Source: Tidjanibacter sp. (GTDB taxonomy: Bacteria > Bacteroidota > Bacteroidia > Bacteroidales > Rikenellaceae). Taken from it: 51,641 nucleotides of DNA. A program made the translations under genes and the position numbers. Each line of letters opens with the position of its first letter. The first letter of the stretch is position 1. The stretch spans positions 1-51,641 of the forward strand of contig JAFTUI010000013.1 in NCBI GenBank assembly GCA_017466345.1, in the 5' to 3' direction. The notes under the pieces were generated by a model. The model did not search any database. It saw nothing but the letters and a program-made list of their open reading frames with translations, and had not been told where the DNA came from. Positions 34,613 to 50,340 of this stretch are shown here, in pieces.

Positions 34613-34872
34613 TTTGGGGAGGTGGTGAGAAAAATGGGAGAAATGGGAGTGATGGGAGTGATGAGAATACCACAACCATACCACCCCCCAAGGTTTGGGG
34701 AGATGCCCTTAGGACAGAAGAGGTTTGTTTTATCACATTACTCCTATAAGCCCTATAAGCCTTATACGTCCTATATGCCCCACAAAAAAAATACTCAGGG
34801 GTATTAAAAAAGACACCCGTGAACAAGGGGGAGGGCAAAATTTTCAATTTTCAAGGCGGTTGGCATCTACCT
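34613..34872. repeat. Repeat island 1, first part
   Basis: ATGGGAGAA-like nonamers (34634-34664), a CCCCCAAGG block, CCTATAAG nonamers (34741-34780), a GGGTAT/ACACCC hairpin (34798-34828), TTTTCAATTTTCAA (34841-34854) and half of a REP-like element, AAGGCGGTTGGCATCTACC (34854-34872). The trio hairpin, TTTTCAATTTTCAA and half REP recurs at 35203-35275. No gene is seen. Confidence 0.7.
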
Positions 34873-35240
34873 TGCTTTTTGTGGGCGACCAAGTCGCCCT
34901 TTTCTTTGCCACTTTTGGTGGCAAAAGTGGCGCAAAAGCCACGCACCGCATCTCTGGCAGGAGCAAGACTCGCAAAATCTAAAACGAACGCTACGCGGGC
35001 AAAGCGTTTGCCGTCTTCGTTTTTTAACGCTTTTGCGACTCTTGCTCGCCACAACCGCCGAGGCGGTCGCTTCTCTGCCGCCGATGCGAAGTGCGAATTT
35101 TGACAGACCCCCTCCCCCTGCGGGGCACTCCCCCTAACTTAGGGGGGATAGTTCCCATATCTCCCATAAGGCTTATAAGCCCTATATGCCCTATACGAAC
35201 ACGGGTATTAAAAAAGATACCCGAGAACAAAGGGGGGGGC
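34855..35240. repeat. Module M copy 1 (about 390 bp, inverted copy at 49592-49981)
   Basis: From left to right: half REP, GTGGGCGACC/AAGTCGCCC hairpin (34881-34900), GCCACTTTTGGTGGCAAAAG hairpin, CACGCACCGCATCTCTGGCA, CGCTACGCGGGCAAAGCG, CAACCGCCGAGGCGGTCGC (about 35052-35070), GATGCGAAGTGCGA, the CCCCTAACTTAGGGG hairpin (about 35102-35150), nonamers, and the GGGTAT hairpin (35203-35222). Order and orientation are mirrored at 49.6 kb. It has no convincing gene, although one frame of the part around 34.95 kb encodes a peptide shared with the other copy (ARDAVRGFCATFATKSGKEK). Confidence 0.75.
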
Positions 35241-35286
35241 AAAATTTTCAATTTTCAAGGCGGTTGGCATCTACCGCTTTACACTC

Positions 35287-35310
35287 ACGTTCGGTGCGCC
35301 CACCGAACGT
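35287..35310. repeat. 24-bp palindrome ACGTTCGGTG/CACCGAACGT
   Basis: Perfect 10-bp arms with a CGCC loop, directly before the left REP-like element of the GIY-YIG unit. Confidence 0.8.
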
Positions 35311-35352
35311 CTTGCCACGACTTGTCGTTAGACAAGGCGGTTGGCATCTACC
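35308..35352. repeat. REP-like element L (left of GIY-YIG gene)
   Basis: CTTGCCACGA, stem CTTGTC-GTTA-GACAAG (35321-35336), then GCGGTTGGCATCTACC. It is in the opposite orientation to R1 and R2, which lie beyond the other end of the GIY-YIG gene. The element ends 4 bp from the GIY-YIG stop codon. Confidence 0.85.
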
Positions 35353-35356
35353 ACTC

Positions 35357-35647
35357 TTAATAATCATCTACGGGCATAAGGTCACGCCACGCAGGGTTTT
35401 GTTGTTGTATGAGCAGCTCTTTACGATGTCGCGAGAGCATTTTTATCTTCTTCTCGCGTTCAATAGCATCAATGATACTGCCAAACTCCTCCACATACAC
35501 CAACTTATTAAGGTTGTACCTTTGGGTAAAGCCTTCGCGAACTTTCGCTCGATGCTGCAATATACGCCGCTCCAAGTTGGAGGTAACGCCTGTGTAGAGA
35601 ACAGAATTTCCCTCGTTGGTAAGCATATAGACATAACTCTTCCTCAT
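35357..35647 (-). CDS. GIY-YIG nuclease domain protein (UPF0213/YhbQ-like)
   Basis: 96-residue stand-alone GIY-YIG domain. YVYML (5-9) and LYTGVT (17-22) form the GIY-YIG core; R27/R28 in LERRILQHR and the Glu pair in AIEREKKIK (63-65) are the usual catalytic positions, all intact. I use the ATG at 35647; the frame upstream runs through repeat DNA. Minus-strand TATCTTTG at 35659-35652 would give an almost leaderless mRNA. The gene fits exactly between inverted REP-like elements (L and R1), which suggests it travels with or acts on them; a DNA-repair role is the alternative. Confidence 0.88.
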   Translation of the reverse strand: MRKSYVYMLTNEGNSVLYTGVTSNLERRILQHRAKVREGFTQRYNLNKLVYVEEFGSIIDAIEREKKIKMLSRHRKELLIQQQNPAWRDLMPVDDY

Positions 35648-35651
35648 ACCA

Positions 35652-35659
35652 CAAAGATA
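35652..35659 (-). promoter_or_regulatory. Possible -7 box for the GIY-YIG gene
   Basis: Minus-strand TATCTTTG only 4 bp before the ATG, which would imply a leaderless transcript. The -33 region would fall in the REP element and shows no TTTG. Confidence 0.35.
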
Positions 35660-35674
35660 ATGATTTTTTAGCAA

Positions 35675-35717
35675 GGTAGATGCCAACCGCCTCAACTCCG
35701 TTGAGTCGTGGCAAGAC
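35675..35717. repeat. REP-like element R1 (right of GIY-YIG gene)
   Basis: GGTAGATGCCAACCGC, stem CTCAAC-TCC-GTTGAG (35691-35705), TCGTGGCAAGAC. The flanks are identical to element L in inverse, but the stem sequence is different and still pairs fully. Confidence 0.85.
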
Positions 35718-35750
35718 GGAGTTATGCCACTCCTATCAATTCCAAGAGTT

Positions 35751-35790
35751 GTAGATGCCAACCGCCTGCCTGCGGCAGTCGTTGCAAGAC
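35751..35790. repeat. REP-like element R2
   Basis: GTAGATGCCAACCGC, stem CTGCC-TGC-GGCAG (35766-35778), TCGTTGCAAGAC. Same orientation as R1, with a third distinct stem. Confidence 0.85.
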
Positions 35791-35841
35791 GAAATTTGCC
35801 ACACTTACTGCACCTACTACTCCCCTCTGCGGGGGTGGGGA

Positions 35842-49591: not shown

Positions 49592-49981
49592 CCTCCCCCT
49601 TGTTCTCGGGTATCTTTTTTAATACCCGTGAGTGTTTTATGGGAGTTATGGGAGAAATGAGAGATATGGGAGTCCAACAACCACCTCCCTCCCCTGTGTC
49701 AGGGGAGGGTGCCCGCAGGGCGGGAGAGGTCAGTAAAATCGCACTTCGCATCGGCGGCAGAGAAGCGACCGCCTCGGCGGTCGTGGCGAGAGCGGAGCAA
49801 AAAGGCGTCAAAAAACGGAGACGGTAAATGCTTTACCCGCCAAAGGCGTCCGTTTTAGGCTTTTTGCTCCGCTCTCCTGCCAGAGATGCGGTGCGTGGCT
49901 TTTGCGCCACTTTTGCCACCAAAAGTGGCAAAGAAAAGGGCGACAAATGTCGCCCACTAAAAGCAAAGTCGATACCAACCG
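49592..49981. repeat. Module M copy 2 (inverted copy of 34855-35240)
   Basis: From left to right: GGGTAT...ATACCC hairpin (about 49608-49627), ATGGGAGAA nonamers (49638-49672), CCTCCCCTGTGTCAGGGGAGG (49691-49711), GCGCACTTCGCATCGGCGGC-like sequence, GACCGCCTCGGCGGTCGTGGC (49768-49786), the AAAACGGAGACGG/CGCCAAAGGCGTCCG region, GATGCGGTGCGTGGCTTTTG, GCCACTTTTGCCACC, GGGCGACAAATGTCGCCC (49939-49956) and a REP flank. It mirrors copy 1 part by part. Confidence 0.75.
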
Positions 49982-50010
49982 CCTTGTCTAACGACAAGTC
50001 GTGGCAAGAC
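49973..50010. repeat. REP-like element R3
   Basis: TACCAACCGC, stem CTTGTC-TAAC-GACAAG (49983-49998), TCGTGGCAAGAC. Same family as the elements around the GIY-YIG gene, but with no nuclease gene beside it. Confidence 0.85.
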
Positions 50011-50340
50011 GGACAGACCTCTCCCGCTGCTGCGCAGCACCCTCCCCTAACTTAGGGGAGGGTTACACACGCCCCCGCCACGACTCCGTAGCCACCCTTT
50101 TTTTTCTCGGGTATCTTTTTAATACCCGTGTTCGTATAAGGCTTATGGGGCTTATAGGGCTTATAGGGCGTATAGGGCGTATGGGCGACAGACCTCTCCC
50201 CCGCTCCGCGGACCCTCCCCTAACTTAGGGGAGGGTTATTAAGGGCGTTAAACTCCTTAAAGTCCTTAAAGTCCCTAAACTCCCATAAGCCTTAGGACTA
50301 TTGACGTTAGACGTTAGACGTTAGACGTTAGACGTCAGTC
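50011..50340. repeat. Repeat island 2, right part
   Basis: Two CAGACCTCTCCC...CTCCCCTAACTTAGGGGAG elements (50013-50062 and 50190-50236) whose inner hairpins differ (CTGCTGCGCAGCA versus CCGCTCCGCGGA), a GGGTAT hairpin (50109-50127), TTATAGGGC nonamers (50133-50185), CTTAAAGTC nonamers, and the core GCCTTAGGACTATTGACG with TTAGACG heptamers (50285-50335). No gene is seen in the 820 bp between feoB and rimM. Confidence 0.75.

Follow-up and report, generated by a model that had tools for sequence, protein, structure and literature searches.

Are a small nuclease gene and the palindromic repeats on either side of it chance neighbors, or are they parts of one element? This is the question raised by the window—the whole stretch of 51,641 nucleotides of Tidjanibacter DNA analyzed here—in which a gene for a GIY-YIG nuclease lies between inverted hairpins tagged with CGTC. 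According to the portions of the 2013 survey by Di Nocera et al. on which we draw (PMC3733652), CGTC-tagged REPs have a CGTC, TGTC, or CCTC tag, an 8- to 9-bp stem beginning with A-T pairs, a short loop, and a CCA tail; they are reported in five phyla, include repeats of many alphaproteobacteria, count Neisseria dRS3 and Rickettsia RPE-4/RPE-6 among their members, and are apparently without a dedicated transposase. The term GIY does not occur in the text of that survey or in passages of two papers that cite it (PMC12306157 and PMC6006769), and among the open-access papers listed in literature searches, no title or abstract opening reports a link between GIY-YIG proteins and extragenic palindromic repeats. 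We compared the window's own genome (G000) and its sister species (G005) within a set of 24 genomes of the genus, and extended the comparison to the order Bacteroidales and to other phyla.

The nuclease gene and its tagged hairpins

The preliminary description of this DNA had placed a 96-codon GIY-YIG gene between two inverse elements, with gaps of 4 and 27 bp, and the sequence, its translation, and a Pfam match bear this out. The gene, 96 codons plus stop, occupies positions 35357..35647 on the minus strand, and residues 3–75 of its 96-aa product match PF01541 with an E value of 1.2e-16. The GIY-YIG superfamily is delimited by the GIY and YIG motifs, a central Arg, and a C-terminal Glu (PMC1564403, in the part available), and the window protein has all of them: its motif reads YVYML...LYTG, Arg 28 and Glu 65 are conserved, and Y7, Y18, R28, and E65 are invariant in an alignment of seven GIY-YIG sequences. 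Repeat L (35308..35352, plus strand) lies 4 bp from the stop codon, with its CGTC tag (35308) pointing outward and its tail, TCTACC, inward, while R1 (35675..35718, minus strand), inverted relative to L and likewise with its tag outward, lies 27 bp from the start codon. Both are 44–45 bp long and have in common, in inverse, an outer flank CGTCTTGCCACGACT and an inner flank AGGCGGTTGGCATCTACC; the likeness of the flanks had been proposed earlier from two quoted strings, both of which are contained, on the other strand, in these flanks. The picture of a bracket of two elements was incomplete. L and R1 are real, but a third full element, R2 (35750..35791, minus strand), lies outside R1 in the same orientation and also belongs to the unit in the sister species, and two half elements, with the inner half only, are found on the plus strand at 35258..35275 and 34854..34871. 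Each terminates one copy of a 76-nt repeat (35200–35275 and 34796–34871, respectively, 93% identical), whose ends look as if the other REP half had been replaced; the window also contains a 9-bp tandem array at 34743–34780. One full element elsewhere in the window, at 49967..50011 (minus strand), was found with a covariance model.

The hairpin formed by this repeat is real. From outside to inside, its consensus is CGTCT-TGCCA-CGA-(variable hairpin)-GCGGT-TGGCA-TCTACC, and standard pairs occupy 98% of pair cells in 18 distinct elements of the genus. In the apical helix of these elements there are 22 compensatory cells compared to a shuffled mean of 5, a value that none of 500 shuffles attained. 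The search pattern behind the 18 elements partly fixed the conserved feet and left the apical stem free, and apical compensation is thus independent of element selection. When elements are chosen by the inner foot alone (n = 29), the outer foot is found in 25, with an intact CGTC tag in 23 of those, and nearly all, including L and R1, have GGTAG at their inner end. The window element consists of two 5-bp helices with an internal loop, a variable loop, the TCTACC tail, and a CGTC tag at one end that is unpaired in the structure. It is similar to CGTC-tagged REPs in its tag, palindromic stem, many copies, and inverted pairs, but its stem is broken and its tail is different, whereas the published form has an 8- to 9-bp stem starting with A-T pairs, a 4- to 5-nt loop, and a CCA tail. 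Because of the broken stem and the TCTACC tail, we have not filed it as a strict CGTC-tagged REP; we class it as a divergent CGTC-tagged form, which has tag and orientation in common with the published families but not stem and tail. No Rfam family was found at gathering scores for these hairpins, either in the window or at 14 loci.

Full elements are concentrated around the gene. The covariance model finds 26 of them in G000 (4 on the window contig), 3 of which fall within the 484-bp span around the gene, where uniform placement would put 0.007 (P about 5e-8), and 3 of the 6 full elements of G005 bracket its GIY-YIG gene, with 0.0015 expected under uniform placement and a rounded G005 genome size. 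At 8 of 25 own-genome loci (L008–L032, the eight within L010–L026), the same inner flank GTTATCCCTGCAAGAAAAACAAGATAG is found next to the repeat, and some repeats therefore belong to a longer composite repeat.

Association of gene and repeats in genus, order, and other phyla

Within the genus, the unit is found in the sister species at another locus, between different neighbors, with the same R2-R1-gene-L order as in the window. Gene and repeats align throughout between G000 and G005—the protein is 93% identical and 231 of the 291 bases of the gene are identical—while the two 200-bp outer flanks have only about 30% identical columns. Directly outside L in G005 there is another dispersed repeat, which has matches elsewhere in the window. 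By the Nei-Gojobori method, pS between the two genes is 0.78 (78% of synonymous sites differ) and pN is 0.05; the nuclease protein is therefore under strong purifying selection, the split between the two copies is not recent, and, because synonymous sites are saturated, no recent jump is visible. We had suspected a recent horizontal transfer between G000 and G005, the nuclease being 93% identical compared to 66% for a protein encoded next to it in G005, but this is unsupported since proS is 97% identical and the nuclease gene has saturated synonymous sites, which leaves only the change of locus. At the HAD-phosphatase locus that adjoins the G005 unit, the related genome G023 is without the unit and has one repeat foot, which terminates an open reading frame (L187, 183–755) weakly similar to S23 (PF05635, E value of 3e-6, under the curated cut-off). 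Overall, the gene is present in 2 of the 24 genomes and the repeat in 7, including both gene-bearing ones; 5 have the repeat and no detected gene and 17 have neither, a co-occurrence that is not significant (Fisher p 0.08). Among the five, G013 (95% complete) and G017 (92% complete) have 14 and 21 repeats, respectively, and no such gene. A Y1 (HUH) transposase (PF01797), the classical REP enzyme whose gene lies beside the repeats in a REPtron, was found neither in G000 nor in 22 of its 23 congeners, and the one congener that has it (G007) holds no copy of the repeat.

In the order, 142 of the 295 genomes have related GIY-YIG genes according to a profile search, with up to 11 matches per genome. 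We scored 40 stretches around such genes, taken from the top of the match list and hence non-random (L153 gave no scored case), by the highest-scoring match of the 300 bp upstream of the gene to the 300 bp downstream. A score of at least 14 is reached by 32/43 GIY-YIG genes compared to 31/507 other open reading frames, and by 30/34 compared to 29/204 when at least 80 non-coding bases are present on each side. A strict rule for tagged hairpins finds them at 10/44 GIY-YIG genes and 5/356 controls in the same stretches, and a relaxed rule with a 4-bp stem, defined post hoc, finds them at 25/30 GIY-YIG loci and at only 1/30 loci each for S23 and ParE genes (the 40 stretches and these GIY-YIG loci overlap, and L202 and L134 are one and the same DNA). 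In this three-gene comparison, no flank score could be evaluated for 3, 12, and 4 of the 30 GIY-YIG, S23, and ParE loci, and scores of at least 14 were found at 22/27, 17/18, and 1/26 of the others, respectively. We considered that such repeats might be common to any small mobile gene and rejected this idea: ParE genes are without flanking repeats, and those of the S23 genes inspected are of another kind. At 12 loci looked at, the S23 four-helix-bundle genes (PF05635; L284–L302) have flanks made up of short tandem units, which in many cases are inverted on the other side of the gene and are unlike the tagged hairpins beside GIY-YIG genes. The bracket has exceptions: one genus of the order (L112, L115) has the gene at a conserved position, with repeats visible on a single side. 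Degenerate tRNA-like pieces accompany some GIY-YIG genes that are more distant, either in tandem with them or as copies on both sides (L039/L049, G060:C20; L040, G053:C23).

The association extends well beyond Bacteroidales. A contig scan confirmed at least 533 loci in named organisms, and our sample is the best 80 of these, a non-random choice from the top of the match list that covers Bacteroidota, several proteobacterial classes, Patescibacteria, Chloroflexi, and others; its 80 genes come from 78 loci because L219 and L272 gave no evaluable gene, and two of the 78 hold two matches, one of them a fragment. In this sample, the best 80 of 533, 52/80 GIY-YIG genes have a flank score of at least 14 compared to 11/226 controls, or 43/50 compared to 9/107 with matched non-coding flanks, and the element common to both flanks has in most rows the form GTCA-(stem-loop)-TCC. 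A tagged hairpin lies within 300 bp of 66/80 GIY-YIG genes and 14/140 neighboring genes (p 4e-28), the latter being the controls out of 226 that remained once those near a target had been excluded, and the density of tagged hairpins per kb of non-coding DNA is 5.1 beside GIY-YIG genes compared to 0.55 for controls and 0.02 for shuffled flanks. The nearest elements within 150 bp are at a median distance of 23 bp upstream and 19 bp downstream. Upstream, their tags point outward in 43 cases and inward in 13 (n = 56); downstream there is no clear bias (28/48 outward and 20 inward, p 0.31). Both tags are outward in 20 of the 33 genes with elements on both sides. Many of these elements, although not in every row, fit the CGTC-REP form, as exemplified by CGTCATCCTCGGGCTTGACCCGAGGATCCA in Shinella and Sinorhizobium meliloti, and the GIY-YIG gene of Neisseria gonorrhoeae has repeats of the dRS3 form around it. 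The bracket is thus general, recurring with different repeat sequences in many phyla, and the window unit resembles those with classical CGTC-tagged REPs in enzyme, layout, and tag.

GIY-YIG genes were also matched in 33 plasmid records, some of them of chromosome size, such as those of N. gonorrhoeae (2.2 Mb) and Aeromonas caviae (4.9 Mb) (L315, L360, and others). At the 13 loci inspected, clear tagged hairpins are present on both sides in Sphingobium, S. meliloti, N. gonorrhoeae, Azospirillum lipoferum, Shinella, Aeromonas, and Rhizobium CIAT894, and variant hairpins, by eye, in Novosphingobium aromaticivorans, Sinorhizobium C101, Planktothrix, and Spirosoma; Photobacterium has hairpins downstream only and further off, and those of R. 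tumorigenes are unclear. On plasmid p1 of Planktothrix agardhii (L361), the gene lies between those for a type IIL restriction enzyme (MmeI) and the DISARM protein DrmA. No match to the GIY-YIG query (P0002) was found in phage records at an E value of 1e-8.

Relocated units and empty sites

The preliminary description had suggested looking in related genomes for flanked copies and for sites without the unit, and both exist: the G005 copy is bracketed by R2-R1 and L at another locus, and empty sites were found in Azospirillum, Sphingobium, and Sinorhizobium. In A. lipoferum 4B, gene and flanking repeats lie between sufB and sufC, and 11 other Azospirillum records match both sides with the unit absent; three empty sites that we aligned have neither gene nor tagged hairpin. 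Four other A. lipoferum replicons have matches to pieces of the repeats flanking the 4B unit. In Sphingobium, the unit is on seven plasmids (on one, the gene match is in two pieces) and absent from four related ones, one of which, TomTYG64, has at the empty site CGTCACCCCGGGTCAAGCCCGGGGTGACG, a junction of the outer halves of the left and right repeats. TomTYG74 has a mutated form of this fused hairpin, and the other two have a different sequence. Three Sinorhizobium records are without the unit, and in the one inspected (K101), the place where S. meliloti Ak57 has the unit is taken by a similar fused hairpin, whose tag by eye is damaged. Fused hairpins are thus found in three of the eight empty sites compared in these three genera, and no clear target-site duplication was seen by eye in the Azospirillum and Sphingobium alignments.

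A fused hairpin may be the footprint of loss or an ancestral target. Because two inverse palindromes contain direct repeats, ordinary deletion can also produce it without any enzyme. As a common form of the repeat, the double-tagged hairpin was rejected for our samples: no CGTC double-tagged hairpin was found in the named-locus sample (best 80 of 533; 228 tagged hairpins with 6-bp stems) or in the 40 order stretches, and two matches at L222 are a different repeat. The units of S. meliloti and Shinella do not share a locus, and the longest stretch over which they match (387 columns, 78%) extends from repeat to repeat. Beside the complete unit of S. meliloti Ak57 (L314, 2155–2316), a GIY-YIG remnant lies between two repeats, like an internally deleted derivative.

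Candidate explanations for the bracket

The reading that we favor, with a probability of roughly 0.6, is that the gene and its flanking repeats would constitute one minimal mobile unit, in which the nuclease would take the unit's own repeats as its substrate. The nuclease would recognize the tagged hairpin—as a cruciform or a single strand—and would then nick or cut it. Because known GIY-YIG enzymes hydrolyze DNA and do not rejoin it, the unit would more plausibly spread via host repair or gene conversion, with the repeat arms as homology, than by strand transfer of the RAYT kind. Solitary repeats and dimers would be the non-autonomous products of this process, and the fused-hairpin empty sites would fit a deletion or a cut between the repeat arms. 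The preliminary description had gone some way in this direction in proposing that the nuclease mobilizes or domesticates its own repeats, an idea that holds in part. The unit at another locus in the sister species, the cross-phylum bracket, the empty sites, the strong purifying selection, and the failure to find a Y1 transposase in G000 or 22 of 23 congeners all argue for it, whereas the repeats of G013 and G017 without the gene, the conserved gene place with one-sided repeats, and the absence of repeats at E. coli yhbQ argue against it.

Comparison with known systems highlights both similarities and differences. REP/RAYT (TnpA-REP) REPtrons and REPINs likewise have a small nuclease gene between REPs and many solitary REPs elsewhere, but the window enzyme is a GIY-YIG protein rather than an HUH tyrosine transposase, its outward tag is CGTC and not GTAG, and covalent rejoining chemistry, unlike in RAYT, is not expected of it. 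I-TevI and Seg are GIY-YIG homing endonucleases, with which the window protein has its catalytic domain in common, and spread through cutting and repair is conceivable here as well; in contrast, the window protein has no further Pfam domain such as NUMOD, no intron or intein is seen, and its gene is free-standing and bracketed by full hairpins. A homing-type interruption of the unit's own recognition site is allowed by the fused-hairpin empty sites, which deletion also explains. Compared to an insertion sequence, which has terminal inverted repeats, a target-site duplication, and a transposase, the unit has inverted repeats, and its enzyme is not a known transposase. UPF0213/YhbQ proteins are small GIY-YIG proteins as well and provide the only PDB sequence relatives found at E values up to 0.01 (1zg2 and 1ywl). 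Yet in E. coli K-12, yhbQ, which we take to be a stand-alone GIY-YIG gene, lies between other genes with no tagged hairpins within 400 bp.

The main rival is that another agent moves the repeats, which would serve the nuclease gene, a selfish passenger, only as recombination handles or safe sites. We consider this unlikely, although it deserves to be taken seriously: five of the seven repeat-bearing genomes of the genus are without a detected gene, and homologous deletion suffices for the fused empty sites. Against it, the 2013 survey, in the portions we cite, gives no dedicated enzyme for CGTC repeats (PMC3733652), a Y1 transposase was not found in G000, and the bracket is seen again in many phyla, where the repeat sequences differ, but not at ParE or S23 genes. 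Improbable by comparison is a host-useful, structure-specific nuclease of Slx1/YhbQ type that processes repeat cruciforms and is kept near repeats by selection rather than mobility. Purifying selection on the protein is consistent with it, as are the UPF0213 proteins as the only solved relatives found and the grouping of prokaryotic stand-alone domains with the Slx1 family (PMC1564403, in its accessible part), but the patchy distribution (2/24 genomes in the genus and 142/295 in the order), up to 11 matches per genome, and the empty sites look selfish rather than housekeeping.

That a RAYT since lost left the window repeat behind as a GTAG-type REP, with the GIY-YIG gene adjoining by accident, is very improbable. 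The inner end does read GTAG, as part of the GGTAG of L, R1, and nearly all other elements. However, in each of two species, at two different loci, the gene has three elements closely around it, CGTC-type repeats bracket related genes, and a Y1 transposase was not found in G000, its only bearer among the congeners, G007, being without these repeats. Least credible of all is that the hairpins are merely terminators or regulators of a small gene in repeat-rich intergenic DNA, as might be suggested by the location of REPs mostly downstream of coding regions (PMC3733652, in the text at hand). Such pairs are rare at neighbors with comparable non-coding flanks (29/204 in the order; 9/107 in the named loci, best 80 of 533), elements occur upstream and not downstream alone, and an equal frequency at size-matched genes, checked with ParE, was not found.

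Returning to the proposed mobile unit driven by its own nuclease, a broader proposal has about even odds in our estimation: CGTC-tagged repeats would belong, as its non-autonomous component, to a distinct class of mobile elements. In this class, an independent counterpart of REP/RAYT, a stand-alone GIY-YIG nuclease would drive spread by hairpin cleavage and host repair, and loss would leave a double-tagged fused hairpin. The GIY-YIG nuclease is thus a candidate for the missing enzyme of a large repeat class. If this is true, a question open since 2013 becomes a simple biochemical test, the frequent annotation "GIY-YIG nuclease family protein" acquires a function, and two unrelated enzyme families would have mobilized palindromic repeats.
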